A stretch of 42,541 nt of DNA from a virus, in the IMG/VR virus record IMGVR_UViG_3300020183_000164, positions 1-42,541 of that record. The stretch is one strand, 5' to 3'. Below, one piece after another: positions 10,280 to 31,464 of this stretch. The notes under the pieces are model-generated. The model did no database searches. It was not told the DNA's origin and worked only from the letters and a program-made list of their open reading frames with translations. A program made the position numbers and the translations under genes. Within the stretch, counting starts at the first letter, position 1, and each line of letters opens with the position of its first letter.

Positions 10280-10923
10280 TATTTATCCTCTATGTCTACT
10301 TCTTCTTTTACTTCTTCATGTTCTACTTCTTGATCGCTTTGGTGTTCTTGTCGTGGCTCTTCTTGGTCTGGCTCTTCTTGACTGTTATCATCTAGCCCTT
10401 CTGCCATTAACTGCTCGACCTTAGTAACTTCTTTAACCTCGACATCTATATAGTCTTTAAACATCCCAACAAGTTCTTTTTCTAACTCTTCGGTTGTCTT
10501 ATTAATAATCGTTATCTCAGTTCTTTCGGCAAAGAGCCCCACATCAGCAATCTTTCCGATCATCTCCACCGACTTTAGACGTACCTTGGGGTCAGGATCA
10601 TCTAACATCTCAATGAGTTTATTTGTCGCAACCGTCCTAAGTTGTGCGGCATCTTTTGCAACTTGTACGTCATACTCCGTGAGGATGGCACCCAGTTTGA
10701 TTGCCACCCCCGGTTTAAATATTTGTTTTGTGGTGGGTTTTACTTCTTGGGTTATAACCTGCTTGGCGAATAAGTCATCTTCCTCTTCCATCTCAATGGG
10801 CATGCCCATCTTGTTCAGAGCAAGTGCAGTCTGACAGGCCACTTTGGCCTTCTCGTAAATATCCCTGTAGTCATAATTCGCTGCCGGAATATCCACATTT
10901 GATTCTGGTTGGATAACTTGCAT
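10279..10923 (-). CDS. Putative terminase small subunit
   Basis: A 214-aa protein directly upstream of, and overlapping, the large terminase; it is the first gene of the minus-strand operon. The middle (about residues 65-150) is helical and regular (AVAIKLGAILTEYDVQVAKD, DDPDPKVRLKSVEMIGKIADVG), with a HEAT-like repeat flavour. The last 45 residues are extremely acidic. Small terminases bind packaging sites and are too diverged for a firm call by eye, so the identity rests on position and helical content. The ribosome binding site before ATG 10923 is poor. Confidence 0.6.
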   Translation of the reverse strand: MQVIQPESNVDIPAANYDYRDIYEKAKVACQTALALNKMGMPIEMEEEDDLFAKQVITQEVKPTTKQIFKPGVAIKLGAILTEYDVQVAKDAAQLRTVATNKLIEMLDDPDPKVRLKSVEMIGKIADVGLFAERTEITIINKTTEELEKELVGMFKDYIDVEVKEVTKVEQLMAEGLDDNSQEEPDQEEPRQEHQSDQEVEHEEVKEEVDIEDK

Positions 10924-10964
10924 GGGCGCCAGTGTAAAGAAGTTATTGTGAAATGTGAAGAAGT

Positions 10965-10980
10965 GGGGTACCCCGGGGTA
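10965..10980. repeat. Overlapping palindromes GGGGTACCCC and TACCCCGGGGTA
   Basis: GGGGTACCCC (10965-10974) overlaps TACCCCGGGGTA (10969-10980). It lies 42 bp before the small terminase candidate in the divergent region, a plausible protein site or switchable hairpin for the leftward operon. Confidence 0.4.
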
Positions 10981-11165
10981 GGGAGGTAAATAAAAAGAAG
11001 GGGGGTGGGTCTGTGGAAAAGATGTTTAGGTATGTCTGGATGAGGGGAACTTTTGGTAACACCGGTGTTTATAAAAATGCTAATCGGGTGCGCGGATTAA
11101 TGTGTCATAGCGGAGTCCCGGCCAGATTGCCAGAGGGGGGGATAGGGGGACGGTGGGGTCCGGCA

Positions 11166-11193
11166 GGAACAAAAGGGTTTTCAGCCGGTCTCA
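11166..11193 (+). promoter_or_regulatory. Sigma-E-like promoter upstream of first early gene
   Basis: GGAACAA (11166-11172), 16 bp, TCTCA (11189-11193). This is a close variant of the GGAACTT-N16-TCTAA form seen at four other early units, about 50 bp before the start at 11242. Confidence 0.55.
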
Positions 11194-11241
11194 GCCTTAC
11201 CAAGCAAATTCGCTTGGCATGCAGTTAACTGGAGAATGACA

Positions 11242-11517
11242 ATGGACGAGAAAAACGAGCCACACTTTACGGTGGCAGTGTTGTTAGAGGCCCTGAAATC
11301 TTATCGGGTTGCACTAGAAAATTCGGGCAATATGATTGTTCAGTATTCCCACGAGATTGTGCGTGCGCACAATAAAGGGGATAAGCCTGAAACAATGCAC
11401 CAATTGGGCTGGATGGAGATGGAGGTCCGTAATCGGGAACGTATATTCCTGAGCATCAGACGGGCTGAAGCCGCGATTCGCCTTTTGAATCGCTTCACTA
11501 AACCATATCGCGACTAA
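11242..11517 (+). CDS. Early small helical protein
   Basis: A 91-aa, mostly helical protein with no recognised domain. ATG 11242 is preferred because GGAG at 11231 lies 7 nt upstream; the in-frame ATG 11236 is too close to it. It is the first plus-strand gene after the divergent region and is followed by a hairpin and a second small gene before a strong terminator, so the two form a short early unit. Confidence 0.7.
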   Translation: MDEKNEPHFTVAVLLEALKSYRVALENSGNMIVQYSHEIVRAHNKGDKPETMHQLGWMEMEVRNRERIFLSIRRAEAAIRLLNRFTKPYRD

Positions 11518-11524
11518 TCGGAGA

Positions 11525-11544
11525 CAGGCCGGGAAACCGGCCTG
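11525..11544 (+). repeat. Perfect 8-bp hairpin with GAAA loop between early genes
   Basis: CAGGCCGG and CCGGCCTG pair around a GAAA tetraloop, ending 8 nt before ATG 11553. There is no T run, so it is more likely an RNA stability or translation-control element than a terminator. Confidence 0.5.
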
Positions 11545-11552
11545 ATAGATAC

Positions 11553-11774
11553 ATGAAAACAATCACCATCGGACCTGCATACGGCAGGGATTACCCAAGC
11601 AAGGCCAAAGCACTAGCAGATTGGGATGCCAACAAAGACTTCATAATCCATGACCTATTTCACAATGGGTATGTATCAAAACTAGAAAAAGACAGGCTAA
11701 TCCAAGACGGCATCACTGCCCTAGTGCTTCGCTACAACATGCTGACTAAAGTGGTCATCATAAAACTACAGTAA
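11553..11774 (+). CDS. Early small protein of unknown function
   Basis: A 73-aa protein beginning MKTITIGPAYGRDYPSKAKALADW, with a basic helical middle and a short beta-like C-terminus (KVVIIKLQ). There is no recognised domain. It starts right after a strong hairpin with only a weak binding site, so translation may depend on that RNA structure. A rho-independent terminator follows 15 nt after the stop. Confidence 0.65.
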   Translation: MKTITIGPAYGRDYPSKAKALADWDANKDFIIHDLFHNGYVSKLEKDRLIQDGITALVLRYNMLTKVVIIKLQ

Positions 11775-11788
11775 AGACTTCCAGTTGG

Positions 11789-11817
11789 CCCGGCAGAACA
11801 CCGCCGGGTTTTTTTTT
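11789..11817 (+). terminator. Rho-independent terminator
   Basis: CCCGGC and GCCGGG form a stem around an 8-nt loop, followed by nine T. It ends the first early unit. Confidence 0.85.
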
Positions 11818-11824
11818 GCCTAGA

Positions 11825-11854
11825 GAACAGGTATCAGTGCGCTCTCTCGCCCAG
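11825..11854 (+). repeat. Copy 1 of 30-nt leader repeat
   Basis: GAACAGGTATCAGTGCGCTC followed by TCTCGCCCAG. It is nearly identical to copy 2 (12614-12643) and related to copy 3 (13419-13448). Each lies just after a terminator and before a palindromic motif. Confidence 0.8.
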
Positions 11855-11870
11855 TCTGCTCTCGCCTGTA

Positions 11871-11885
11871 AATCACACTGTGACA
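11871..11885 (+). promoter_or_regulatory. Dispersed palindromic motif, site 1
   Basis: AATCACACTGTGACA, 6 bp upstream of the -35-like GGAAC at 11892. Confidence 0.55.
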
Positions 11886-11891
11886 TCTTAG

Positions 11892-11920
11892 GGAACAATT
11901 GGAACCGAATGATTGTCAAA
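11892..11920 (+). promoter_or_regulatory. Sigma-E-like promoter of first 172-aa paralog
   Basis: GGAACAA (11892-11898), 17 bp, TCAAA (11916-11920). It also aligns with the promoter at 12692 through GGAAC, ATTG and a downstream TATG. It is 70 bp before the start at 11990. Confidence 0.5.
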
Positions 11921-11989
11921 CCAATATGCAAGGCAATAACGCAGTGCATACCGGGAAACCGGGTAACCCTGTCACTCAGGAGAGTAAAA

Positions 11990-12508
11990 ATGACAGAGCA
12001 AACCGCAGTAGCAGTCGCCGTTGGCGCAACCCAGCCCGTCCCTTTGACGGCCTTTCAAACCGCCTTGGATACATGGCTGGATGTGTCCAAAAAAGAGCAT
12101 GGCGCAGTCAAAAAGGCGGCCATGATGTCCCTTGAGATCTTTGACAAAGACGACGCCGTCAAGCGCCGTTGGATTCTCAAGGCAACCCGTACGGGCAACA
12201 AACCTGCCCAATTGGCCTATGACTGGGTCACTACCCAGGTCAAAGATCGCGCCAAGGCCGCAGGCGAGGTTAACGTCAATATGAAACTGAAACGTTTCCT
12301 TGACGAAGTAAAACAGGCCGCAGGCCTTGCCAAACCCAAGGCCGGGTCTTCAGGCAAGGAGGAAATTAAGTTTGTCGAGGAAGCCGCGCGGATGTTGCAA
12401 AACCACCTCTTCAAAACCTCCGAGGGCCAATGCCATGCCCTCAAAAACCTCTGGGACCGTTTCCAAGAGGCCTGCATCGAGGATGGCGTACTCAAAGAAG
12501 ACGCCTAA
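11990..12508 (+). CDS. Early protein, tandem paralog A (172 aa)
   Basis: A 172-aa, predominantly helical protein of unknown function. The start at 11990 follows CAGGAGAGTAAAA. The longer open frame from 11816 would run through the leader repeat and is rejected. It is a paralog of the next gene, with the same length and 28 of the last 36 residues identical, including QNHLFKT-x-EGQCHA and IEDG-x-LK-x-DA. KATRTGN in the middle is also shared as KMTRTGN. It has its own sigma-E-like promoter and terminator, so it is a discrete, probably strongly expressed early gene. Conserved Cys and His in EGQCHA could bind metal or be structural. Confidence 0.85.
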   Translation: MTEQTAVAVAVGATQPVPLTAFQTALDTWLDVSKKEHGAVKKAAMMSLEIFDKDDAVKRRWILKATRTGNKPAQLAYDWVTTQVKDRAKAAGEVNVNMKLKRFLDEVKQAAGLAKPKAGSSGKEEIKFVEEAARMLQNHLFKTSEGQCHALKNLWDRFQEACIEDGVLKEDA

Positions 12509-12527
12509 GTCTCCCCCCTCTCTTAAC

Positions 12528-12557
12528 ACCCCGGACTAACCCTCCGGGGTTTTTTTG
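12528..12557 (+). terminator. Rho-independent terminator
   Basis: ACCCCGG and CCGGGGT form a 7-bp stem around a 9-nt loop, followed by eight T. It ends paralog A. Confidence 0.85.
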
Positions 12558-12562
12558 CGCCT

Positions 12563-12580
12563 AAAGATAACAATGTGACA
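12563..12580 (+). promoter_or_regulatory. Dispersed palindromic motif, site 2
   Basis: AAAGATAACAATGTGACA, directly after the terminator and before leader repeat copy 2. Confidence 0.5.
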
Positions 12581-12613
12581 GACCAAGTATCATCCGCCCG
12601 ATTTTCCCCCGGG

Positions 12614-12643
12614 GAACGGGTATCAGTGCGCTCTCTCGCCCAG
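12614..12643 (+). repeat. Copy 2 of 30-nt leader repeat
   Basis: GAACGGGTATCAGTGCGCTC followed by TCTCGCCCAG. It differs from copy 1 only near the fifth base and lies in the equivalent place before paralog B. Confidence 0.8.
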
Positions 12644-12659
12644 ACCCTGCCGTCTCGCC

Positions 12660-12680
12660 AAAAGTAACAATGTGATTTTT
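12660..12680 (+). promoter_or_regulatory. Dispersed palindromic motif, site 3
   Basis: AAAAGTAACAATGTGATTTT, 11 bp upstream of the promoter at 12692. Confidence 0.6.
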
Positions 12681-12691
12681 CCCCGGTGCTC

Positions 12692-12719
12692 GGAACTATT
12701 GCTCCGGATCGCACTCTAA
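12692..12719 (+). promoter_or_regulatory. Sigma-E-like promoter of second 172-aa paralog
   Basis: GGAACTA (12692-12698), exactly 16 bp, TCTAA (12715-12719). It matches the classical ECF sigma-E form GAACTT-N16-TCTRA. Its 66-bp leader runs to ATG 12785. Confidence 0.7.
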
Positions 12720-12784
12720 CATCTTATGAAGCAAATAATTGTTTCATCTGCACCGGCAGCCCCGGGTTTTACTTGGAGAGTAAA

Positions 12785-13303
12785 ATGAGTAACGAAGCAA
12801 AAGTCACAAGTGTGACTTCCCCCGAAGCAGTACAAGTGCCGCTCACGCCCTATGAGCAATTGCTTGATCAGTACTTTGAAGCCGATAAAAAGGCTAACGC
12901 CACGGTCTCCGATGTGGCTAAGTTCCTGATCAATATGGCCCATAAAGATCCCACCGTGAAGCACAAGTGGCTATTAAAAATGACCAGAACGGGGAATGAG
13001 CAAGCCACTAATTTCTTTAAGTGGGCCCGTGACACGGCCGTGGAACGTGCCAAGAATCGGGGCGAGAAAAACCCGAATCAAAAGTGGAAGCGTATTCTTG
13101 ATGCGGCTAAAGAAATGGAAGGTATGGTAGTGGCTAACGATGGATCGGCCACAACAGAGATTCAGTTCATGGAGCAATTTGCCCGTGGAATCCAGAATCA
13201 CCTTTTCAAGACCGATGAAGGACAGTGCCACGCCACTAAAGAACTTTGGGAGCGATTGCAGGAAGCCTTTATCGAAGACGGCTTGCTAAAAGCAGACGCC
13301 TAA
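12785..13303 (+). CDS. Early protein, tandem paralog B (172 aa)
   Basis: A 172-aa paralog of the gene at 11990, with equal length and the strongest conservation in the C-terminal third (QNHLFKT-x-EGQCHATKELW). The start at 12785 follows TGGAGAGTAAA, the same leader ending as paralog A. The middle is more basic (RAKNRGEKNPNQKWKRIL), so the copies may have different partners. It lies between its own sigma-E-like promoter and terminator. A palindromic motif copy (12801-12818) lies inside the first codons. The function is unknown; the arrangement indicates duplication of a whole transcription unit. Confidence 0.85.
   Translation: MSNEAKVTSVTSPEAVQVPLTPYEQLLDQYFEADKKANATVSDVAKFLINMAHKDPTVKHKWLLKMTRTGNEQATNFFKWARDTAVERAKNRGEKNPNQKWKRILDAAKEMEGMVVANDGSATTEIQFMEQFARGIQNHLFKTDEGQCHATKELWERLQEAFIEDGLLKADA
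12801..12818 (+). promoter_or_regulatory. Dispersed palindromic motif, site 4 (intragenic)
   Basis: AAGTCACA-AG-TGTGACTT, perfect 8-bp arms, in the first codons of paralog B. Confidence 0.55.
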
Positions 13304-13321
13304 AGAAACAAGCACCACTTC

Positions 13322-13350
13322 AGCCCCGGCTAACCCCCGGGGCTTTTTTT
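13322..13350 (+). terminator. Rho-independent terminator
   Basis: AGCCCCGG and CCGGGGCT form an 8-bp stem around a 7-nt loop, followed by seven T. It ends paralog B. Confidence 0.85.
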
Positions 13351-13368
13351 CGTCTGTCCGCATCCGGC

Positions 13369-13387
13369 AAAAGTAACAATGTGATTC
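13369..13387 (+). promoter_or_regulatory. Dispersed palindromic motif, site 5
   Basis: AAAAGTAACAATGTGATTC, after the paralog B terminator. It is identical to site 3 over 18 bases. Confidence 0.6.
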
Positions 13388-13418
13388 TCCGGCACTGTCC
13401 GGGCATAGGACGCCCCGG

Positions 13419-13448
13419 GAACGGGTCTCTATATGCTCTCTCGCCCAC
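13419..13448 (+). repeat. Copy 3 of leader repeat (diverged)
   Basis: GAACGGGTCTCTATATGCTC followed by TCTCGCCCAC. It shares both ends with copies 1 and 2 but has a different centre, and no gene follows it closely. Bases 13414-13429 recur inverted at 21812-21827. Confidence 0.7.
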
Positions 13449-13470
13449 GCCATCCAGCACGTTGCAGGGG

Positions 13471-13490
13471 AAATAACGATGTGATTTTAT
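13471..13490 (+). promoter_or_regulatory. Dispersed palindromic motif, site 6
   Basis: AAATAACGATGTGATTTTAT, at the left edge of the AT-rich region. Confidence 0.5.
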
Positions 13491-13516
13491 GTGAGCGGCC
13501 ACTCACGGTATTTTTT

Positions 13517-13547
13517 TGTATCTTATTTAAATTTATCTATATATTAT
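13517..13547 (+). repeat. Left arm of 31-bp inverted repeat
   Basis: It begins TGTATCTTAT and ends TTTATCTATATATTAT. It pairs with the right arm at 13764-13794 with two mismatches at the centre. Confidence 0.8.
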
Positions 13548-13763
13548 CTATACTATACTATACTACTACTACTATCTTATTAATTTTAAAAAAAATCTGG
13601 GGGGTCTGTCGGCCGCATTTTTTGGGTCGTATTAAACAATCATTTTGTACGGTTATTATTGATCTGTCATTGTTTAATTCGGGGTCGTTTTTCTTTGCCT
13701 GTTTGTACTTTCAAAATTTTCTTAAATTTAATAAGATACTTATTTTCGAGTCAAACACTTTCA

Positions 13764-13794
13764 ATAATATATAGATAAATTAATATAAGATACA
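13764..13794 (-). repeat. Right arm of 31-bp inverted repeat
   Basis: The reverse complement of the left arm except for two bases. A shorter inverted copy (13721-13739) precedes it. Confidence 0.8.
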
Positions 13795-13823
13795 TAAAAT
13801 TAGGCGCTACTTTGGTGCATTTT

Positions 13824-13851
13824 GGAACTTTTTCAACCCCCAAACCTCTAA
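13824..13851 (+). promoter_or_regulatory. Sigma-E-like promoter of HNH-like gene unit
   Basis: GGAACTT (13824-13830), exactly 16 bp, TCTAA (13847-13851), 31 bp before ATG 13883. The leader is almost free of G. Confidence 0.7.
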
Positions 13852-13882
13852 CAACCACCCCAAACCAAGGACACAACCCACC

Positions 13883-14431
13883 ATGCCCATTACCAAAGAA
13901 CCCAACTACCCCACCGCCAGCGGATTGCCCGAGACTGACGAGCACCTAGAGATGTTTAGGGATTGGATCGAAGAGAACACCGATATGGATTCCGTAACGA
14001 ACTGCTGGAATTGGAAGGGCGCAATCGACAAGAACACCAACGTAGCCCGCTACAAGAACAACAGTGCCGCCACCTACATTTTCAAAATCATCAACCGTAT
14101 CCCTGCCGATAACCCCGGGCGCATATTCAGAACGTGCCGTAATAACTTATGCGTAAACCCCGAACACTCCCGCGTTGCCATAGGCCCAAGAACCAAGGCC
14201 AAGGTCAGGCTAGAGGAAACCCTTGGGGGCGCACTGCTGACCCCCTCGCAGTTTGAGGAGGTCAAAGAACTGCTAAATAAGAACTTAGTAGCGATGGTCG
14301 TTGACGAGATACAGCGGGGCGTAGCGAAAGAGATCCGCATGGTGGAAAAACTAATAGTAGAAGGCGTGGTGGCAGAACTGATACGGGTGAGGTTCGATGA
14401 GATGGTCGCCAAGGCGATAAGGGGAAAATGA
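13883..14431 (+). CDS. Degenerate HNH-endonuclease-like protein
   Basis: A 182-aa protein. The N-terminal half resembles phage HNH nucleases of the CWxWxG type: NCWNWKGAIDKN (about 40-51), then FRTCRNNLCVNPEH (about 80-93), which retains the zinc-ligand and NPEH parts. The usual first catalytic His before the C-x-n-x-x-C motif is Arg/Thr here, so cleavage may be lost. The second half is a helical region with repeated hydrophobic heptads (VAMVVDEIQRGVAKEIRMVEKLI) not usual in homing nucleases. AAGGA lies 12 nt before the start. Loss of activity and a change to a DNA-binding or oligomeric role is inference. Confidence 0.7.
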   Translation: MPITKEPNYPTASGLPETDEHLEMFRDWIEENTDMDSVTNCWNWKGAIDKNTNVARYKNNSAATYIFKIINRIPADNPGRIFRTCRNNLCVNPEHSRVAIGPRTKAKVRLEETLGGALLTPSQFEEVKELLNKNLVAMVVDEIQRGVAKEIRMVEKLIVEGVVAELIRVRFDEMVAKAIRGK

Positions 14432-14742
14432 TGGGACAGGTAAAAAAAGAAATGATGAGTGCGGAGGTCTGGTGGCCTGTGGCCTACCTTTCGGACAAGC
14501 CAGTCGTGACCAAGATGAAGAAAGAAGAACTCATAGCGCGGCTCAGGCTTATGGAGGGGCATCTGAAGATGTATGAGATCTTGGAGAAAACCTTTGGCTA
14601 CTGCCACCCTGATGTTCAAGTGGCCCGGATGGGCAAGGCCGAAGCACTAAGGGTGCATGAGAAGATGGAGAGGGAGAGGATGGAGATGGGGATAGAGAAG
14701 ATACGGGAGAAAAGTCCAAAAAGTCCAAAACCCTTAACGTGA
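14428..14742 (+). CDS. Small early protein with FGYCxPxxQxARM motif
   Basis: A 104-aa, helical, charged protein starting at overlapping ATGATG codons on the previous stop. The segment EKTFGYCHPDVQVARMGKAEA is matched by FGFCRPETQLARMELGEA in the protein at 15714, so the two share a small unnamed domain. A basic tail (KSPKSPKP) ends the protein. No function is known to me. Confidence 0.7.
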   Translation: MMGQVKKEMMSAEVWWPVAYLSDKPVVTKMKKEELIARLRLMEGHLKMYEILEKTFGYCHPDVQVARMGKAEALRVHEKMERERMEMGIEKIREKSPKSPKPLT

Positions 14743-14825
14743 GCCAGGTGAGCCACCCCCAAAAACACCACGCTCTATAACAACCCACCACACCCCCATC
14801 CCGCCCCTAGGATCTCCCCCGCACA
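14743..14825 (+). other. C/A-rich spacer before a promoter
   Basis: No gene or terminator is visible. The stretch is C/A-rich (for example CTCTATAACAACCCACCACA), like the leader after 13851. The promoter at 14826 follows. Confidence 0.4.
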
Positions 14826-14853
14826 GGAACTAACTCTCCCGCCCACTGTCTAA
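14826..14853 (+). promoter_or_regulatory. Sigma-E-like promoter of small-gene cluster
   Basis: GGAACTA (14826-14832), exactly 16 bp, TCTAA (14849-14853), then CTTATATGGG. It aligns without gaps to the promoter at 17148 over 40 bases. Its leader of about 90 bp carries a palindromic motif. Confidence 0.7.
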
Positions 14854-14913
14854 CTTATATGGGCCAAGTTGCGTGCCCTACGAGCCCGGGGAGCAAACAC
14901 TACATCAGCCGGG

Positions 14914-14933
14914 AAATCACAGTCGTTACTTTT
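14914..14933 (-). promoter_or_regulatory. Dispersed palindromic motif, site 7
   Basis: AAATCACAGTCGTTACTTTT, the reverse orientation of AAAAGTAAC-TGTGATTT, in the leader between the promoter and ATG 14946. Confidence 0.5.
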
Positions 14934-14945
14934 CAGGGGTTGGGT

Positions 14946-15161
14946 ATGAGCACCGAGACACAGTGCATTTTTTGTGGTGACTATTTAAGTCAAGGTCGTT
15001 GGGCGTTGGGGTATAGAACGTGCCTATTCTGTGGCGAAGAGCAGGCAAGGCAAGAACGGATGAGTTGGTGCGTGGCCCCCATGCACAAGAGCAATTACAT
15101 GCTCATAACAAACAAGACAGACCTAGCAGGGCTGAACAACAAGGGAGGGTTGGTGAAGTGA
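14946..15161 (+). CDS. Small zinc-ribbon protein
   Basis: A 71-aa protein with two CxxC pairs (CIFCGDYL near 7-14 and CLFCGEEQA near 26-34), forming a likely four-Cys zinc ribbon. A conserved-looking tail follows (APMHKSNYMLITNKTDLAGLNNKGG). I recall this family from many environmental phages as a small protein without assigned function. ATG 14946 is chosen because the longer frame would run through the leader motif. Binding of nucleic acid is possible. The next gene overlaps its stop. Confidence 0.75.
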   Translation: MSTETQCIFCGDYLSQGRWALGYRTCLFCGEEQARQERMSWCVAPMHKSNYMLITNKTDLAGLNNKGGLVK

Positions 15162-15322
15162 ACGGCGAGGAGTTTTTGTGTCAGGACTTGGAGGCCAAGT
15201 TATTTAAGTGGTTTCTGTCCCGGTTCGACGCACCGAGGATCATCGCGGCGCGGCATAAGGAGTTAGTGGAAAGTGGGCTATTGAAGGAGGGCTACGATGA
15301 AGACGAGAAATCACGCAAGTGA
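15158..15322 (+). CDS. Small early protein, GTG start
   Basis: A 54-aa acidic protein starting at GTG 15158, which overlaps the previous stop (GTGA) behind AAGGGAGG. It contains LFKWFLSRFDAPRIIAARHKEL, a likely helix pair. The function is unknown. Confidence 0.55.
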   Translation: MNGEEFLCQDLEAKLFKWFLSRFDAPRIIAARHKELVESGLLKEGYDEDEKSRK

Positions 15323-15470
15323 CTATGCCGTGGGAGAAGTTGTCCGGTGGCTATGGAACAAAGAGGTTGGGGTGATAGTCAAAGTTAGTGAGGTGACTAA
15401 TACTATCGAGGTGATCTTTGATAGCGGCAAGGAGCAGTTGTTATGGTGCGATCAGATAGAGAAGGTGTAG
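15297..15470 (+). CDS. Very small protein, SH3-like repeat family
   Basis: A 57-aa protein starting at ATG 15297 behind GAAGGAGG and overlapping the previous gene by 26 nt. DYAVGEVVRWLWNKEVGVIVKV followed by EVIFDSGKEQLLW resembles YAVGEAVRDKVTSVIGVVLK in the next gene and, more weakly, WGIGEVCWHTFHGRCIVKG in the gene at 16851. The alternating strand pattern suggests a small SH3/KOW-like barrel. Palindromic motif site 8 lies in its first codons. The function is unknown. Confidence 0.6.
   Translation: MKTRNHASDYAVGEVVRWLWNKEVGVIVKVSEVTNTIEVIFDSGKEQLLWCDQIEKV
15308..15326 (+). promoter_or_regulatory. Dispersed palindromic motif, site 8 (intragenic)
   Basis: AAATCAC-GCAA-GTGACTAT, a wider-spaced variant resembling site 15. 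Confidence 0.3.
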
Positions 15471-15724
15471 GGCTAGAGCGGTGGGAGAAGTGGGATGAGG
15501 CAGAGATGAATTATTTGATGCGGTACGAGCAGAAAGATTGGCAAGATTGGGCGGGGGATAACAGTGTCTACGCAGTGGGCGAAGCAGTGCGGGATAAAGT
15601 AACAAGTGTGATAGGCGTTGTGCTAAAGCCTTTTGCCAAGACAGGGTTGTACGTTATGTTCCCTCAGTACGATGTGCCTCAGTTGGTACGTTCAGCAAAC
15701 GTGGAGAAATTAAATGAAGATTAA
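15443..15724 (+). CDS. Small early protein, SH3-like repeat family
   Basis: A 93-aa protein. The start at 15443 lies 8 nt after AAGGAG and overlaps the previous gene by 28 nt; an internal Met at 15506 is less well placed. The C-terminal part (YAVGEAVRDKVTSVIGVVLK, VMFPQYDVPQLV) matches the fold pattern of the 57-aa neighbour, so the two look like tandem paralogs. The function is unknown. Confidence 0.65.
   Translation: MVRSDREGVGLERWEKWDEAEMNYLMRYEQKDWQDWAGDNSVYAVGEAVRDKVTSVIGVVLKPFAKTGLYVMFPQYDVPQLVRSANVEKLNED
15596..15613 (+). promoter_or_regulatory. Dispersed palindromic motif, site 9 (intragenic)
   Basis: AAAGTAACAAGTGTGATA, inside a coding region. Confidence 0.45.
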
Positions 15725-16040
15725 AGGTGTTAGTGGTGCGGAGTACGAAGAATGGAAACCGCCCACTGAAACGGCAAAAGCATGGAAGCCGCCGAAGGAT
15801 TATGAGAATGTGTTAGAACGTCAAAACAAATCACTGCAAGACACAGTGGTGCACTTGACCGCTTTAATTCATACGTTTGGGTTTTGCCGACCCGAAACGC
15901 AGTTAGCCCGCATGGAACTAGGCGAGGCCACTGAGCGGTACGTGCTAAATAAAAGTTATGACGAGAAGAACTACGGAGCGATAGCCAAGCATGTATTGGC
16001 ACAGATGCGAGCCAAGGGGGAGATGCCCGATGAGAATTAA
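15714..16040 (+). CDS. Small early protein with FGFCxPxxQxARM motif
   Basis: A 108-aa helical protein overlapping the previous stop by 11 nt. FGFCRPETQLARMELGEATERY is a paralogous copy of the motif in the protein at 14428. The N-terminal Trp/Pro-rich segment (EWKPPTETAKAWKPPKDYENV) contains a repeated W-K-P-P pattern and could be an extended binding arm. The function is unknown. Confidence 0.7.
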   Translation: MKIKGVSGAEYEEWKPPTETAKAWKPPKDYENVLERQNKSLQDTVVHLTALIHTFGFCRPETQLARMELGEATERYVLNKSYDEKNYGAIAKHVLAQMRAKGEMPDEN

Positions 16041-16308
16041 AACGTTGTTGGGTGAGAGCGAAGATAGGGGTGTGAAATATAGGTTCTCAGCACACATCTT
16101 TTTAGAATACCCGACTATTCCGATTCCCTTAAAAGTAGCAATGGGGATTTTCCGTCAAGCAGATGCGGCAGAAGCATGGGCCAATCAGTGCTTAGAAATT
16201 ATGGGAGAGGATCAGACTTGGGCAGATGCAGGGGATGCTCAAGAGATGGACACGTGGTTGTCCATGCACTTACCCCCTGATGACTTTGAGCGCGAGCACG
16301 CGCAGTAG
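16030..16308 (+). CDS. Small early protein of unknown function
   Basis: A 92-aa protein; ATG 16030 overlaps the previous stop and follows GGGGGAG. Mixed alpha/beta composition with VKYRFSAHIFLEYP and an Asp/Glu-rich C-terminus. No domain is recognised. Confidence 0.65.
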   Translation: MRIKTLLGESEDRGVKYRFSAHIFLEYPTIPIPLKVAMGIFRQADAAEAWANQCLEIMGEDQTWADAGDAQEMDTWLSMHLPPDDFEREHAQ

Positions 16309-16320
16309 AGGAGAAGTGAA

Positions 16321-16551
16321 ATGAAAGTTTATAGAGTGCATTATCAAACTGATGGGGGTTGGGTAAACGAGTGGTTTGCTACAAAAGCAGAAGCCAAGCA
16401 AGCCATAAAAGAAATAAAGAATGAAAGAAAGGATGATGAAATAAATGGTGACGGTTTGCTTGATTCTGAGCCGGAATTGAAAGTTATCCCGACTGATAAG
16501 AAAGGGCTTGTGCGGTGGTTAAACCTTTGGCACGGAGGTGCTCGGCTATGA
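16321..16551 (+). CDS. Small early protein of unknown function
   Basis: A 76-aa protein starting behind GAGGAGAAGTGAA. MKVYRVHYQTDGGWVNEWFATKAEAKQAIKEIK is a pattern I have met in other phages: a beta hairpin followed by a charged helix, often read as a small single-domain protein. No function is assigned. It overlaps the next gene by 4 nt. Confidence 0.65.
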   Translation: MKVYRVHYQTDGGWVNEWFATKAEAKQAIKEIKNERKDDEINGDGLLDSEPELKVIPTDKKGLVRWLNLWHGGARL

Positions 16552-16664
16552 CCCCCCATGAAGCCGCCCAAAGCGTGGCGTGGTTTGCTTTTATAGTTGT
16601 TATTGGTATTGGATTAGTTATGTGGTACGACATTAGAAAGGAGAAGCGTGATGGCAAAAAGTAA
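16548..16664 (+). CDS. 38-aa single-pass membrane protein
   Basis: A very short gene starting at ATG 16548, 9 nt after GGAGG. It encodes one hydrophobic helix (WFAFIVVIGIGLVMWY, about residues 12-27) followed by a basic cytoplasmic-type tail (RKEKRDGKK). The start and stop overlap both neighbours, supporting translation. It could be a holin-like or membrane-modulating peptide; size alone does not decide. Confidence 0.6.
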   Translation: MTPHEAAQSVAWFAFIVVIGIGLVMWYDIRKEKRDGKK

Positions 16665-16851
16665 GAAGTGGGACACCATATATGAGCATGGTAGTCCGAC
16701 ACTCATGGTGGATAAAGAATCATCACAGGATTACATCATAGGTGGTGATGACGTAGGGCGACTGCGGGCAATCGTGGATCACTTAAAAACCGATTGGCCC
16801 GAGCTAGCTGACACTTTGAATGAAGTGTTAAGTAATTTAGTGGAGGTGTGA
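16651..16851 (+). CDS. Small early protein of unknown function
   Basis: A 66-aa protein. ATG 16651 is 7 nt after AGGAG; the GTG just before it is less likely. It is acidic and helical in its second half (GRLRAIVDHLKTDWPELADTL). No domain is recognised. Confidence 0.6.
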   Translation: MAKSKKWDTIYEHGSPTLMVDKESSQDYIIGGDDVGRLRAIVDHLKTDWPELADTLNEVLSNLVEV

Positions 16852-17132
16852 TGAGTAGAGGAGTAAGAGATTGGGGAATCGGAGAAGTTTGTTGGCATAC
16901 TTTTCATGGGCGTTGCATAGTCAAGGGGATTCCTAGGCCTCCGATTGTTGGGTGGTTGGGTAACCTTTCTCCTGACTTGGTTGTCATTCGTGAGAGTGAT
17001 GGCAAAGAATTGGTTTTTAATTCAGATCACGTAACTAACGGTGGAGATCCTTTGTGTAATGTCCATGACCTCATTCCGATTGACGAGTGGGATGCAAGCA
17101 AGGAACTTAAGCGACTAGCGGAGGAGATCTGA
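16851..17132 (+). CDS. Small early protein, possible SH3-like fold
   Basis: A 93-aa protein, last gene of the small-gene unit, starting at ATG 16851 overlapping the previous stop, behind GGAGG. WGIGEVCWHTFHGRCIVKG, VVIRESDGKELVFNSDHV and HDLIPIDEW give a strand-rich pattern similar to the small paralogs at 15297 and 15443. The function is unknown. Confidence 0.65.
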   Translation: MSRGVRDWGIGEVCWHTFHGRCIVKGIPRPPIVGWLGNLSPDLVVIRESDGKELVFNSDHVTNGGDPLCNVHDLIPIDEWDASKELKRLAEEI

Positions 17133-17147
17133 ATATGCCCCCGCATG

Positions 17148-17175
17148 GGAACTTTTTTCCCCATTTGCACTCTAA
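17148..17175 (+). promoter_or_regulatory. Sigma-E-like promoter of the AAA+/VWA cassette
   Basis: GGAACTT (17148-17154), exactly 16 bp, TCTAA (17171-17175), then CTAATATGGG. A leader of about 95 bp holds a perfect palindrome. A second TCTAACATCTTATGGAG element (near 17250), resembling the -10 part of the promoter at 12692, lies closer to the start. Confidence 0.7.
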
Positions 17176-17212
17176 CTAATATGGGCATGATCCATCGCCC
17201 ATGCACCGCCGG

Positions 17213-17232
17213 AAAATCACATGTGTGATTTT
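17213..17232 (+). promoter_or_regulatory. Dispersed palindromic motif, site 10 (best symmetric copy)
   Basis: AAAATCACA-TG-TGTGATTTT, perfect 9-bp arms, in the leader of the AAA+ gene. Confidence 0.65.
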
Positions 17233-17273
17233 TTATTTGAAGTTGTACATCTAACATCTTATGGAGAGATTGT

Positions 17274-18344
17274 ATGAGCCGAGTATCTTTTGGACTATCA
17301 GTAGATTTTGACCAAGCGGTAACGTTGGTCGCAGAACTAGGGGAGGAGGTTTGCTATTTGTTTCAAGGCGAGCCCGGTGTTGGCAAATCAAGCATGCTAA
17401 AACCACTCAGTGCACGTTTTCCTACGCACGAAGTTGCTTACATCGATTGTGCGAATCTTGATCTTGGCGATATTGCCATGCCCTTTATTGATCGAGAGTT
17501 GAACTGCACTAAGTATTACCCAAACGCACACTTCAAGATGCACACAGGCAAGCCCGTCATCATCATGCTAGATGAGTTGACCAAGGCCAGCCAATCAGTG
17601 CAGAACATGCTATTGCCTTTGATCTTAGAGCGCAGGATCGGTGACATCAAGTTGCCAGCGGGATCTCTTGTGTTTGCTACGGGTAATTTGTTTGGCGATA
17701 ACGTGGGTGATCATCTTAAAGCGCATGCTAAGAACCGTATGGATTGCGTACCGTTCCGTAAACCTACCACTAAACAATGGGTCAAGTGGGCGATGAATAA
17801 CAATGTGACAGAAGAGGTGTTGGCGTTCGTTGATCAGTATCCCGAGGTTATGTATTCGTACACGGATGGGGGGCAAGAGAAGAACAAATACATCTACAAC
17901 CCCAAAGAACAACAGTTGGGTTTTGTTTCTCCTCGCTCTCTTGAGAAGGCATCCTTTGTTGTTAAGAAGCGCAAGGCTATTGGTGATGAAGCGATGCTTG
18001 CATCTCTTATCGGCTTACTTGGCGAAGCGGGTGCTCGTGACCTGCATGCCTTTGTGAATCTTGATGATAAGTTGCCAACGTTTGATTCGTTGATCGCAAG
18101 CCCAGACACGGCTCCGATTCCCGATGATCCGATTGCAGTTTGCATCTTGGTCTACAAGGCAGTCGTGCATGTGACTAAAGATCAAATGCCTAAGTGGGTA
18201 ACGTACATGAACCGACTCAAGAAAGAGAACCAAGGTCTTTTTGCAAGATCTTTATTGGAGTCTCCAAACTCCAAGGCCGCCGGTAGCAAGGAGTTTATTG
18301 ATTGGGCCACGCAGAACAATTACATCTTTGCCAAGGCTAACTAA
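17274..18344 (+). CDS. MoxR-type AAA+ ATPase
   Basis: A 356-aa ATPase with Walker A GEPGVGKSS (32-40), Walker B VIIMLDE (95-101), sensor 1 FATGN (134-138) and an arginine-containing SPRSLEKA near 230 as sensor 2. The loop between Walker A and B and the LAD after the ATPase core fit the MoxR family, which works with VWA-domain partners to remodel or activate protein complexes. The next gene encodes such a partner. A sigma-E-like promoter and palindromic motif precede it. The target of the machine in infection is unknown. Confidence 0.85.
   Translation: MSRVSFGLSVDFDQAVTLVAELGEEVCYLFQGEPGVGKSSMLKPLSARFPTHEVAYIDCANLDLGDIAMPFIDRELNCTKYYPNAHFKMHTGKPVIIMLDELTKASQSVQNMLLPLILERRIGDIKLPAGSLVFATGNLFGDNVGDHLKAHAKNRMDCVPFRKPTTKQWVKWAMNNNVTEEVLAFVDQYPEVMYSYTDGGQEKNKYIYNPKEQQLGFVSPRSLEKASFVVKKRKAIGDEAMLASLIGLLGEAGARDLHAFVNLDDKLPTFDSLIASPDTAPIPDDPIAVCILVYKAVVHVTKDQMPKWVTYMNRLKKENQGLFARSLLESPNSKAAGSKEFIDWATQNNYIFAKAN
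17796..17810 (+). promoter_or_regulatory. Dispersed palindromic motif, site 11 (intragenic)
   Basis: AATAACAATGTGACA, within the AAA+ gene. Confidence 0.4.
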
Positions 18345-18363
18345 AGGGTATGCAGCACGCGTT

Positions 18364-18379
18364 AGTCACAATGTTATTT
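18364..18379 (-). promoter_or_regulatory. Dispersed palindromic motif, site 12
   Basis: AGTCACAATGTTATTT, reverse orientation, in the 49-bp gap before the VWA gene. Confidence 0.5.
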
Positions 18380-18393
18380 ATGAGGAGATCTTT

Positions 18394-19584
18394 ATGGACT
18401 TATCTAAACTAACCGCAGAGCAGCGCCTGCAAAGAACCCATGTGGCTCTGATGGCGCATAAGAAGTTTATTCTTATGTCCGGTGTGCTCGTTTCCGGCGA
18501 TGTCGATGTTATTGATTCGCCTACAAAAACGGCTTGCACGGATGGCCTTAATGTTGAGTACGGCCGAGAGTTTGTTAACAAGTTGACCGATAAGGAGTTA
18601 GCGTTCGTGGTCTTGCATGAGAATTGGCACAAGGCGTATAAGCACTTGTTGATCTGGAAAGATCTACATGACATTGACGCTAAAGTTGCCAACATGGCTT
18701 GCGATTATGTGATCAACCTGCAAATCAAGAAGTATGACCCAAACGGTGAGACATGCGTCATGCCCGAAAACGGTCTGCTAGATGAGCGGTTTGATGGCAT
18801 GGACACTCGCCAAGTCTTTGACATTCTGATGAAGGAGAAAGAAGAGAACAGTGAGGGTGGTGGCGAATCCGAGGATGGTGGCTTTGATGAGCATGACTGG
18901 GATGAGGCCAAGAGTTGGGATAAGGATAAGATCAAAGAGGTTGAGCGCAAGATCGATCAGGCTCTCCGCCAAGGCGAAGTGTTGCTTAAGAAGAAAGGCG
19001 ATGCGGGTAGTGGTGGTAGTCGTGCGTTCGGTGAACTCTTGAATCCTATAACTGATCCCTATGAGTTGTTACGGGAATACATGGTATCGACTTGTAGTAA
19101 CAGAAGTGATTCTTCATGGCGCAGGCCAAACCGTAGGTTCATATCGCAAGATATTTACATGCCTACGCAAATTGCCGAGGCTATTGAGAGTATCGTTGTT
19201 GCAATCGATACATCAGGCTCTATCTCTAATCGTGAACTTGAACGGTTCCTGACGGAGGTGGCGCACATGTGCGAAGTGGTGTCGCCACAGAAGGTGCATG
19301 TCATGTATTGGGATACTAGTGTGTGTGCCCATGAGGTGTACGAGCAGGACAGGGTGCTTGAGATTGCTAGTAGTACCAAGCCCTCCGGTGGTGGTGGCAC
19401 TGATCCGACTTGTGTTGCTCAATACATGAGAAGTAACAATGTGACTGCACAGGTGATGATCATGCTGACCGATGGCTACATCGGCAACGTAACTCAAGCC
19501 GATTGGCAGGGCATGCCGCCTACCGTTTGGATGGTGGATGGGTCGAGGTCTGTAAACGTAGTTGGTAAAGTAATTTATCTTTAA
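18394..19584 (+). CDS. Metallopeptidase-like / VWA-domain protein
   Basis: A 396-aa protein starting at ATG 18394 behind TGAGGAGATC. The N-terminal half has HENWH (75-79), an HExxH zinc site, followed by NMACDYVIN (100-108), a pattern of the DUF2201-type putative metallopeptidases. A Gly/Glu/Asp-rich linker spans about 150-180. The C-terminal VWA domain carries MIDAS residues DTSGS (272-276), a Thr in GGGGTDP (333-337) and LTDG (358-361). MoxR plus VWA pairs act as chaperone-like complexes. Whether the peptidase is active is not shown, though the residues are intact. Confidence 0.85.
   Translation: MDLSKLTAEQRLQRTHVALMAHKKFILMSGVLVSGDVDVIDSPTKTACTDGLNVEYGREFVNKLTDKELAFVVLHENWHKAYKHLLIWKDLHDIDAKVANMACDYVINLQIKKYDPNGETCVMPENGLLDERFDGMDTRQVFDILMKEKEENSEGGGESEDGGFDEHDWDEAKSWDKDKIKEVERKIDQALRQGEVLLKKKGDAGSGGSRAFGELLNPITDPYELLREYMVSTCSNRSDSSWRRPNRRFISQDIYMPTQIAEAIESIVVAIDTSGSISNRELERFLTEVAHMCEVVSPQKVHVMYWDTSVCAHEVYEQDRVLEIASSTKPSGGGGTDPTCVAQYMRSNNVTAQVMIMLTDGYIGNVTQADWQGMPPTVWMVDGSRSVNVVGKVIYL
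19431..19446 (+). promoter_or_regulatory. Dispersed palindromic motif, site 13 (intragenic)
   Basis: AAGTAACAATGTGACT, within the VWA gene. A weaker variant lies at 19095-19112. Confidence 0.4.
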
Positions 19585-19598
19585 CTTAGGAGAGCAAA

Positions 19599-20450
19599 AT
19601 GAGTATCTCAAATCAAGCGATGTTGGTAGAACTTAGTATTGGGCATTGGACTGCAAACAAGTTGGATAGGCAAGTGTCCGAAGAAGTTGATGCAAGCAAG
19701 GGCACTAGGGTCAAAGCGGGTAACTATCGTAAGAACTTACTCGCCGGGGCCAAGGAGTTGGAGGACATTAAGAACTTTGTCGGTAACTTTCGCAATTGGC
19801 ATTACAGACAGACCATGCCGTGGGCTGACAGTGGCACTCGACTGCTGACTTTGAAGCGTTATCTTCCGTATGTGGGCGAGGTCAATGCCAAGATACAGGA
19901 GTTTGATGCGCTGAAGCGGCAGTTTATCTCAGTCTATCCTACCCTGATATCTCAGATGGCGTTTCAGTTGGGTAGTCTATTCAACCGTGACGAGTATCCG
20001 AGTGAGGATCAAGTTGAGCGTAAGTTTTATTTCAACGTCAATTACTTCCCTCTGCCCGAGGCGGGTGACTTTCGTGTTGATGTTGGCAACGAGGCATTGG
20101 CTGAACTGCAAACGCAATACTCTAGTCACTACGATAACAAGTTGAAGGAAGCGATGGCCGACGTATGGGGTCGTTTACATACCACACTGCAACATCTTTC
20201 TGAGCGACTGCAATCTTCGGATGACGGCACTAAGAAGGTCTTTCGTGATTCGTTGATTGGCAACGCAACGGAACTCTGCGGCATGCTGACTGACTTCAAT
20301 GTAACTAACGATCCACAGTTGGAGCAGGCTCGGAAGGACTTGGAGCAAGCCCTGCTTGGTGTAACTGCCCAAGATCTCAGAGAGAGTGTGCTTGTGCGGG
20401 AGGACGTTCGGGCCCGTGTCAACGAAATCCTTAATAAATTCGATTTCTAA
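19599..20450 (+). CDS. Third partner of AAA+/VWA cassette (DUF3150-like)
   Basis: A 283-aa protein 14 nt after the VWA gene, behind TAGGAGAGCAAA. It is mostly helical, with MLVELSIGHWTANKLDRQVSEE at the N-terminus, a Trp-containing stretch RNWHYRQTMPWADSG near 65-80, and a long helical C-terminal half (about 165-283). I associate this pattern with DUF3150-like proteins found beside phage MoxR genes, although the match is from memory. It may link substrate to the ATPase. No catalytic motif is visible. Confidence 0.7.
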   Translation: MSISNQAMLVELSIGHWTANKLDRQVSEEVDASKGTRVKAGNYRKNLLAGAKELEDIKNFVGNFRNWHYRQTMPWADSGTRLLTLKRYLPYVGEVNAKIQEFDALKRQFISVYPTLISQMAFQLGSLFNRDEYPSEDQVERKFYFNVNYFPLPEAGDFRVDVGNEALAELQTQYSSHYDNKLKEAMADVWGRLHTTLQHLSERLQSSDDGTKKVFRDSLIGNATELCGMLTDFNVTNDPQLEQARKDLEQALLGVTAQDLRESVLVREDVRARVNEILNKFDF

Positions 20451-20456
20451 ACGGAG

Positions 20457-20474
20457 AATCACAATGTTACAAAT
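20457..20474 (-). promoter_or_regulatory. Dispersed palindromic motif, site 14, over a start codon
   Basis: AATCACAATGTTACAAAT, reverse orientation. It includes ATG 20464, so a bound protein could affect only transcription through it, while the RNA form would overlap the initiation region. Confidence 0.5.
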
Positions 20475-21411
20475 AGGCGATGACAGAATCTGCCGCCCGT
20501 CTGAGGCAATTGGTCTGATTGACCGATCACAGAATCCAGAAACGGGCAGGCTCTTGGCACATGCAGTGGAACATCTTATGTTCTCGCATCCCTACAAGAA
20601 GTTTGATTTGGTCTTTCGTAAACACTTTATGTCTAATGGGTTTCAGGTATATGATTTCGGGCTAGAGGTTTGCAACATTAGGTTTTATAAACCCGATGGT
20701 GAAGAGCGCACTGCGTTGCAGTTGGAGTTTAGGTATAACTACAACGTGCATAGCAAAGCGCCAAAGGATTCCAAGCGTACATCTAATATCAGTAAGATCT
20801 TAGATTTGGTACGGTTGATCAAGCCTGCCAGCACCAAGGATCATGCGTCACGTTTCCATGTAGAAGAATTAATTGAAGAAACCACTAAGTTTGCGGCACA
20901 CAAGCGAGATTTTGATCGGGTGTTTTCAAATATCGCCTATGACAACGTGGAGACCAATATCTCACTGTTTGATGATTTACTCAATAAGCGAAATACGTCT
21001 GCGGTAGAAGCACTGCGTAATAAGTTTTACGAGAAACACAAAGCGTATGTTGCTGCTGCCGAACATAAAACACGAATGTCCCGTAACTCAGCATTGGTCA
21101 CGAAAAATCACAGTGGTGACTATCGGGTGGTGCATAGGGTTGAAACGAGCAAAGATCGAGAGGCAGTAAAAGCGAACTACGTCATGGTTGACTATGCAAG
21201 GAAAGACGATATCCCCCCAAACATCTACGGCAAACTATGCTTGCTTGAGATTGCGGATCAAAATGATGGGAATACGCATGAAGTCGAAGGTGTCGGTCAA
21301 GTGGTAAAGCATGGTACGGTTGGTTCCGTGTATACTATTATTGGTGAGGACTTAGAGGGGCCTCCCATAAGTGGTGACGCCGGAACGCATAGTCAAATCG
21401 AAAGTAACTAA
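20464..21411 (+). CDS. Conserved protein of unknown function after AAA+/VWA cassette
   Basis: A 315-aa protein starting at ATG 20464, 8 nt after GGAG. It has mixed alpha/beta content, with a basic middle (KAPKDSKRTSNISKILDLVRLIKP) and helices to about residue 200, then a strand-rich C-terminal domain. No domain is recognised. It is close to the cassette but separated by a motif-bearing start region, so it may be a fourth component or the first gene of the nuclease unit. The downstream nuclease gene overlaps its end by 41 nt. Confidence 0.75.
   Translation: MLQIGDDRICRPSEAIGLIDRSQNPETGRLLAHAVEHLMFSHPYKKFDLVFRKHFMSNGFQVYDFGLEVCNIRFYKPDGEERTALQLEFRYNYNVHSKAPKDSKRTSNISKILDLVRLIKPASTKDHASRFHVEELIEETTKFAAHKRDFDRVFSNIAYDNVETNISLFDDLLNKRNTSAVEALRNKFYEKHKAYVAAAEHKTRMSRNSALVTKNHSGDYRVVHRVETSKDREAVKANYVMVDYARKDDIPPNIYGKLCLLEIADQNDGNTHEVEGVGQVVKHGTVGSVYTIIGEDLEGPPISGDAGTHSQIESN
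21103..21123 (+). promoter_or_regulatory. Dispersed palindromic motif, site 15 (intragenic)
   Basis: AAAAATCACAGTGGTGACTA, within the unknown gene at 20464. Confidence 0.4.
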
Positions 21412-21667
21412 ACTTCTTACGGAGAGGGGGGCCTATTGGTTCTACCCGGTGGCATCGGGTTATGGGTCAGCAGGCATCCCCGACATCGTTTGTTGTTATA
21501 GAGGGAGGTTCGTTGGCATTGAGTGCAAGGCAGGCAGCGGCAAGACTACTGCATTACAGGAAAATAACTTAGAGCGTATTAGGCAGTGCAGTGGCTTTGC
21601 CCTTGTCGTTCGTGAGGATCTCACGGAACTTATTGCGCTTTTGGAACTCATAGATTCACAGGCATGA
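21371..21667 (+). CDS. VRR-NUC domain nuclease
   Basis: A 98-aa protein with the compact VRR-NUC form of the PD-(D/E)xK fold: a GSAGIPDIV block with the catalytic Asp (D38), GIECKAG with E51 and K53, and a Gln/Asn-containing helix (LQENNLERI, 62-70). Phage versions cut branched DNA such as Holliday junctions and act in recombination or before packaging. The start is GTG at 21371 (or 21374), as no in-frame ATG exists. It overlaps the upstream gene by 41 nt with only a distant GAGGGG, suggesting coupling. Confidence 0.85.
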   Translation: MVTPERIVKSKVTKLLTERGAYWFYPVASGYGSAGIPDIVCCYRGRFVGIECKAGSGKTTALQENNLERIRQCSGFALVVREDLTELIALLELIDSQA

Positions 21668-21677
21668 ACCCCGGGAT

Positions 21678-21693
21678 AATCACATTGTGATTT
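21678..21693 (+). promoter_or_regulatory. Dispersed palindromic motif, site 16
   Basis: AATCACA-T-TGTGATT, perfect 7-bp arms with a 1-base centre, in the gap before the AT-hook gene. Confidence 0.6.
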
Positions 21694-21732
21694 CCCCCCG
21701 CAACCAAATTTGCTCTATCCCTGAAAATACAG

Positions 21733-21760
21733 GGAACTTTTTCTCTCCAAGTTAGTCCCA
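21733..21760 (+). promoter_or_regulatory. Weak sigma-E-like promoter overlapping a terminator
   Basis: GGAACTT (21733-21739), 16 bp, TCCCA (21756-21760). The -10-like part is also the left arm of the following terminator, so initiation would fall within the terminator sequence and skip it. Confidence 0.3.
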
Positions 21761-21781
21761 CCCTAGCGGTGGGATTTTTTT
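21756..21781 (+). terminator. Rho-independent terminator
   Basis: TCCCACC and GGTGGGA form a 7-bp stem around CTAGC, followed by seven T. It ends the unit that includes the VRR-NUC gene. Confidence 0.9.
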
Positions 21782-21792
21782 GCCCACAGGAT

Positions 21793-21827
21793 GCCGGGGT
21801 AGTCCCGGCTTGAGACCCGTTCCCGGG
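21793..21827. repeat. Leader hairpin and inverted copy of the early leader repeat core
   Basis: GCCGGG and CCCGGC form a 6-bp hairpin (21793-21809). GAGACCCGTTCCCGGG (21812-21827) is the exact reverse complement of 13414-13429. Both lie in the leader of the AT-hook gene. Confidence 0.55.
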
Positions 21828-21847
21828 ATTAATATAGGAGAAATGGA

Positions 21848-22129
21848 ATGAATAAAAATATGGATAGGTTGGGCTTAACGGAAAAGTTATTGCATTTTAT
21901 GGTTGAGGAAGTTGATCGTATGCGGGATTCGGTTAACGATTTAAACGATGAGATTGACTACAAGGATCGACTTCTTTTTGAAAAAGCCGAGATCATTAAG
22001 ATGTTAGGCCATCAACTCAAGGGTGCGCCCAAAAAGCGGGGACGACCCAAGAAAGTCACAGATGTGATTTCCCCGGTAAAGCGTGGCCCGGGCCGTCCAA
22101 AGGGTAGTAAAAAAGGGAAATCTGCGTGA
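21848..22129 (+). CDS. AT-hook DNA-binding protein
   Basis: A 93-aa protein with a helical, coiled-coil-like N-terminus (about residues 5-55) and a basic tail holding two AT-hook cores, KKRGRPKK (about 62-69) and RGPGRPKGSKK (about 80-90). AT-hooks grip the minor groove of AT-rich DNA. Its likely target in this genome is the AT-rich stretch at 13.5-13.8 kb, and it may act as an origin or architectural protein. The start follows TAGGAGAAATGGA. It has its own unit after a terminator, and it contains motif site 17 between the hooks. Confidence 0.8.
   Translation: MNKNMDRLGLTEKLLHFMVEEVDRMRDSVNDLNDEIDYKDRLLFEKAEIIKMLGHQLKGAPKKRGRPKKVTDVISPVKRGPGRPKGSKKGKSA
22052..22070 (+). promoter_or_regulatory. 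Dispersed palindromic motif, site 17 (last copy)
   Basis: AAAGTCACAGATGTGATTT, inside the AT-hook gene. I saw no further clear copies to the right. Confidence 0.5.
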
Positions 22130-22165
22130 TAACTCAGATGGGAGCGCATCATTTTTAATCGGGCT

Positions 22166-31233: not shown

Positions 31234-31464
31234 GTGGTTGGCTATACCTTATCAATTATTAATAAAAATGCTGAGGCTGACCAATCCAAGATTGGTGTTC
31301 AGTTAGGCAGGATTTGCATATCCAAAAACGTACCTGTCCAGATCGTGGCTAGTTACTTTGGTATGACGAGAAGCGGAGTGTATTACTGGTTCAGTGGGGA
31401 ACGAGAACCTAGAAAAGTGGCGGCGCAAGAGATAAAAGACTTCATACAAAATTTAGCCGAGTGA
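31234..31464 (+). CDS. Small helix-turn-helix DNA-binding protein
   Basis: A 76-aa protein starting at GTG 31234 behind GGGGATATATC. The segment VPVQIVASYFGMTRSGVYYWFSGEREP (about 34-60) is a Cro/XRE-like helix-turn-helix in which GMTRSGVYYWFSG is the recognition helix and turn. It is the only compact HTH protein in the genome and so a candidate to bind the dispersed palindrome at 11.9-22.1 kb. The pairing is inference. It precedes the primase-helicase gene by 4 nt. Confidence 0.75.
   Translation: MVGYTLSIINKNAEADQSKIGVQLGRICISKNVPVQIVASYFGMTRSGVYYWFSGEREPRKVAAQEIKDFIQNLAE

Follow-up and report, generated by a model that had tools for sequence, protein, structure and literature searches.

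The window analyzed here, a 42.5-kb virus record taken at its full length of 42,541 nt, belongs to a freshwater-type phage in which only 7% of the DNA is noncoding. In the terminase, it shares 60% identity with phage DSL-LC04 and 54% with Pelagibacter phage HTVC027P. Closer relatives are found among viral contigs, with TerL identities of 90-92% for G001, L007, L008, and L112, 82-83% for L009, L111, and L120, and 79% for L010 (G001 is a 62-kb contig of L006, and G050 is an 87-kb contig of L120). A scan of bacterial genomes for TerL in search of a host returned matches in mixed MAG bins only. Judged by gene content and position, the plus-strand genes discussed below are probably early genes, and many of the early proteins match no known family.

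Along the plus strand lies a series of sites, labeled P1 to P8, that resemble promoters of extracytoplasmic function (ECF) sigma factors. Four match GGAACT(A/T)-N16-TCTAA exactly: P4 (GGAACTA; 12692-12719) ahead of the unit at 12785, P5 (GGAACTT; 13824-13851) ahead of the HNH gene at 13883, P6 (GGAACTA; 14826-14853) ahead of the unit at 14947, and P7 (GGAACTT; 17148-17175) ahead of the gene at 17274 for a MoxR-like AAA ATPase. These are the four exact sites that the original prediction had placed on the plus strand between genes, and their positions, strand, and intergenic location are all correct. The two close variants it had named are equally real, namely, P2 (GGAACAA-N16-TCTCA; 11166-11193), for the unit at 11236/11242, and P3 (GGAACAA-N17-TCAAA; 11892-11920), for the unit at 11990, as GGAAC and TC--A are held in register at both in relatives. 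The series was said to cover the plus-strand units up to 17.3 kb; the sites up to that point are present, but it does not end there, since P8 (GGAACTT-N16-TCCCA; 21733-21760) would feed the unit at 21848. Finally, P1 (GGAACTT-N16-TTATA; 11046-11073) is a weak ECF-like plus-strand site without an obvious gene of its own, and its status as a promoter site is uncertain. When compared with an RpoE-type -35 element, GGAAC(TT) with an invariant AAC, every listed site and its equivalents carry GGAAC, followed at most sites by TT or by TA/AA. The -10 elements likewise agree with the RpoE type (TCTAA, TCAAA, or GTC type at 15-17 nt) in having TC--A at 16 or 17 nt, with the TTATA of P1 in the window as the exception.

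The strict pattern is absent from the minus strand of the window, and the same pattern read backwards, used as a control, is absent from the window altogether. Given the 7% of noncoding DNA, the finding of all four strict sites outside genes has a binomial p of 2e-5. For the noncoding DNA at 10924-17273, a Markov model puts the expected number of strict sites at 0.0018, where 4 are seen, and that of the looser form, GGAAC-N18/19-TCNNA, at 0.059, where 6 are seen. The looser form also matches within genes, at 15355, 17730 (minus strand), 21625, and 28124, and is not specific by itself, so that conservation or position is needed as support; the matches at 15355, 21625, and 28124, inside genes, were set aside as coding or chance. 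The expectation that such sites would exceed chance and avoid genes is borne out for the strict form. When the window is ranked with a weight matrix written from the sigma-E consensus, independently of these sites, all four strict sites come within the first five places (17.6-19.3 bits) and the other place goes to the end of a coding region, whereas the best site in shuffled sequence averages 16.0 bits and reaches 19.3 bits at most. The strict phage sites follow the pattern of the Escherichia coli rpoE promoter, GGAACTT-N16-TCTAA, which is present as GGAACTTTACAAAAACGAGACACTCTAACCC in the rpoE leader of 5,372 of 5,426 genomes. It could be argued that the series arose by chance or by recent duplication of one intergenic segment, as the intergenic regions are partly repeated. 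This is extremely improbable in view of the number of strict sites expected, the differences from site to site in spacers and flanks, and the persistence of equivalent sites over large divergence; at the level of the pattern, this explanation is refuted.

Such sites are also present in relatives whose TerL is 79-92% identical, for the most part at equivalent places. P1 has an equivalent in G001 and L007, there with GGAACTA-N16-TCAAA and near-identical downstream sequence, and is lost in L008. For P2, GGAAC and TC--A remain in register in G001, L008, L009, L111, and L112 with a diverged spacer; across five sequences of the region, the 16-nt register is constant, with most of the 18 intervening bases altered. 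Equivalents of P3 in G001, L112, L111, and L009 have N16, the 17-nt spacer occurring in the window alone. P4 is kept in L007 and L112, and P6 has an equivalent at L006:953, where the short stem GGGC/GCCC is replaced by GGGA/TCCC. P7 has equivalents in G001 (2988), L120 (11968), L129, and L187, and the ATPase gene is preceded by an equivalent site in relatives whose ATPases are 92%, 71%, and 48% identical; in L129 and L187, at 48%, the site is GGAACTT-N16-TCTAA, about 150 nt upstream of the gene. The 87-kb contig of L120 has five sites in a gene order matching that of the window, including the HNH and ATPase genes, with GGAACTT or GGAACTA, N16 or N17, and TCTTA, TCCAA, or TCGAA, its HNH gene being preceded by GGAACTT-N16-TCGAA where the window has P5.

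When sites are pooled, part of the invariance seen at GGAAC and TC stems from the search criteria. The columns free of this bias are conserved as well, with A at position 7 (16/20), G before TC (14/20), and TA at 5-6 nt past the -10 element. Among 49 TerL relatives, the strict N16 pattern identifies sites essentially only in the closest ones. Several matches found elsewhere, including those of L182, are coding. No convincing series of sites was found in the nearest isolates, DSL-LC04 and HTVC027P.

The placement of the sites is also informative with respect to transcription units. Strong intrinsic terminators on the plus strand lie before P3 (11787-11810), before P4 (12528-12550), and before the P5 region (13322-13344), and the units behind them consequently need promoters of their own. 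Three intergenic regions contain a 30-nt element, GAACnGGTATCnGTGCGCTCTCTCGCCCAG, placed after the terminator and ahead of the promoter (11824-11854, 12613-12643, and 13418-13448); it is also present in L007, L009, L111, and L112, with a diverged copy in L120. P8 presents a different arrangement, in that a plus-strand terminator (21754-21776) overlaps the site and holds its -10 element within the 5' arm, and the same arrangement recurs in G001 (7654) and G050 (61178), that is, in three phages. A transcript starting about 6 nt past the P8 -10 element would be made without the 5' arm of the terminator and should therefore escape termination. In two of the three phages, the escaping transcripts from this region (21733-21787 in the window) could form a new 5' hairpin. 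Separately, the P8 sequence at 21738-21759 and the ribosome-binding leader of the 12785 gene (12764-12785) show 82% complementarity, possibly by chance.

Many sites are followed by a hairpin that starts 4-9 nt past the -10 element, close to where transcription from an ECF promoter is expected to start, about 5-8 nt past that element. The plus-strand hairpin of P2, CCAAGC-N6-GCTTGG (11200-11217), and that of P4, ATGAAGCAA-N4-TTGTTTCAT (12726-12747), which is identical in L007 and L112, both begin 6 nt past the -10 element. P7 is followed on the same strand by TATGGGC...GCCCATG (17180-17203), and P3 by an interrupted hairpin, TATGC...GCATA (11925-11950), which fails a strict test for uninterrupted stems. 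By this strict test, hairpins accompany 14 of 28 sites, a set that includes orthologues and is not independent, compared with 18-25% of control positions; P5 and most L120 sites have no 5' hairpin. The P2 hairpin has stems of CCAAGC/GCTTGG, CCTAGT/ACTAGG, CCGGGA/TCCCGG, CCAAGT/GCTTGG, and CCAAGC/GCTTGG in five phages, with 100% pairing in all five and both sides altered at three of the six pairs. Its covariation score of 0.617 exceeds that of shuffles (0.182), is reached by 0 of 500 of them, and is above all slid versions. As the stems differ between units, they argue against a protein operator common to them and favor a structure formed by the 5' end of the RNA. A search of 10900-22200 against Rfam returned no known RNA family.

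The hairpins also bear on whether GGAAC and TC--A might instead be sites of a regulator that is not a sigma factor, with the true promoters being weak sigma-70 promoters nearby, such as those suggested by TATAT downstream of P6 and P7. An A/T-rich stretch does follow the -10 element at several sites, but P2 and P5 are without any TATAAT-like stretch, and the hairpins start where an ECF promoter would begin transcription. Half-sites of constant sequence set 16-17 nt from each other are, moreover, a typical feature of promoters. Sigma-70-like matches in 10900-22200 are at the level of chance (14, against 13.3 in shuffles), and upstream of the units TTGACA-16/18-TATAAT is not enriched, the best match scoring 9/12 and none reaching 10/12. 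A regulator of this kind is thus an improbable explanation of the series. The statement that an ECF-type promoter heads each plus-strand block is well supported by the statistics, the position after terminators, the conservation, and the 5' hairpins.

Neither Sigma70_r2 nor Sigma70_r4_2 had a match at E<=1 in any of the three genomes searched (window, G001, and G050), with positive controls, and the best 25 of 30 families in a Pfam scan of the 55 window proteins include neither a sigma factor nor an RNA polymerase family. The original prediction, in which no sigma factor gene had been seen, is in this respect upheld for the window and its two longer relatives. A search for a T7-type single-subunit RNA polymerase also gave no match, as did the control genomes. 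An 85-amino-acid protein annotated as sigma-G in DSL-LC04 was rejected as a candidate, as it matches no sigma family in Pfam and does not resemble the small helix-turn-helix protein of the window. It is conceivable that the phages encode a specificity factor of their own, diverged beyond detection, that recognizes an ECF-like motif, as many early proteins lack a family match and the motif persists throughout a phage family with possibly several hosts. We consider this unlikely. No sigma domain was found in three genomes at E<=1, the strict consensus is that of the cellular rpoE promoter, and, if all plus-strand units need such a factor, it would have to be present already for its own gene to be transcribed.

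The absence of a detected sigma domain, combined with strict sites that equal the rpoE pattern, makes a host RpoE-like ECF sigma factor the simplest reader. We think it likely that ECF-class promoters head the early units and are read by the host polymerase with such a factor. The plus-strand early and replication region would be divided into short units, in part by terminators, each opened by an ECF-class promoter (GGAAC, 16-17 nt, TC--A) that acts in vivo and is recognized by the RNA polymerase of the host when bound to one of the host's ECF sigma factors, most probably an RpoE/AlgU-type factor. Many transcripts would then carry a hairpin at the 5' end or no more than a few nucleotides from it, probably serving to protect the mRNA. 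As regards the proposed use of a host envelope-stress ECF sigma factor, the class of the sites and the lack of a sigma domain agree with it, and the equation with RpoE itself would be drawn from promoter resemblance only.

Comparison with known systems places this proposal in context. The strict sites share GGAACTT, the 16-nt spacing, and TCTAA with RpoE/AlgU-type (ECF02) promoters of Gammaproteobacteria, such as E. coli rpoE. They differ from them in driving blocks of phage genes, in the 5' hairpin found at many sites, and in the looser sequence of the set as a whole, which accepts any base after GGAAC and has -10 elements of TCYYA, TCATA, or TCAAA. Transcription of phage genes by the host polymerase, as proposed here, is known from the host sigma-70-dependent promoters of phage T5 (PMC7472727), which are of the sigma-70 rather than the ECF class. 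Phages of Alphaproteobacteria carry host CtrA sites in their promoters (PMC9437464), and there, too, clustered promoter sites wire phage expression to a host regulator; CtrA is a response regulator, whereas the part borrowed here would be the sigma factor itself. The phiEco32-like phage 7-11 (PMC8948821) similarly depends for specificity on a factor that is not the housekeeping sigma, but encodes its own sigma-like protein, and none is detectable in the window phage.

It could further be speculated that, in this phage family, adsorption or DNA entry frees the host envelope-stress ECF sigma factor and so switches on early transcription. We regard this as rather doubtful, and published data point both ways: infection with a variant of filamentous phage Pf4 activates the ECF factors AlgU and SigX in Pseudomonas aeruginosa, and lytic infection of the same species by LUZ19 does not (PMC7693463). 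Were it true, the damage sensing of the cell would serve as the start signal for infection.

Phages are normally taken to start from the housekeeping sigma factor or from a polymerase of their own, and we found no report of ECF-dependent early promoters of phages in the open-license literature. If the reading by a host RpoE-like factor is right, a host stress sigma factor would be a requirement for infection, infectable hosts could be predicted as those with an RpoE-like sigma factor, and phage entry, envelope stress, and early transcription would be connected. The sequence signature may also be used to find such phages in metagenomes. In a wider survey, about 120 viral stretches chosen solely for GGGAACTT-N16-TCTAAC were compared with 120 carrying the reversed pattern; among the matches listed, further strict sites numbered 20 (over 1.08 Mb) in the former and 4 (over 1.09 Mb) in the latter, selected sites fell outside long ORFs more often in the former (44/119 against 22/120; p 0.0014), and relatives of the window phage were commoner there (25/119 against 7/120; p 0.0006). 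The series in L182, an unrelated T7-like phage in which several sites are coding, was not counted as promoters. In L239, whose proteins have no similarity to those of the window, five copies of GGAACTT-N14-CGTCTAA lie on one strand, each 33-81 nt ahead of a plausible small-gene start, and this may represent a second phage lineage doing likewise.

A further repeated feature of the region is the palindrome TCACAn(n)TGTGA, with about 14 copies in a zone at 11873-22067. Allowing up to one mismatch, the window has 16 copies against 5 in one shuffle. In G050 the palindromes are similarly clustered, 21 of 24 within 11.1 kb (50280-61425), and the usual form in L120 is TGTCACAnTGTGACA. Copies occur both inside and between genes, and several adjoin the -35 element of P3, P4, or P8 or lie close to it. 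The palindrome is probably the dispersed operator of a regulator, and the copies beside or close to -35 elements probably allow that regulator to lower or raise promoter activity later. A candidate for the protein that binds it is the 76-amino-acid helix-turn-helix protein encoded at 31234-31464, which has weak HTH_3 and repressor matches. Upstream of P5, the A/T-rich stretch at 13509-13802 contains long nested inverted repeats (39 nt at 90% and 27 nt at 85%) and is a possible replication origin.
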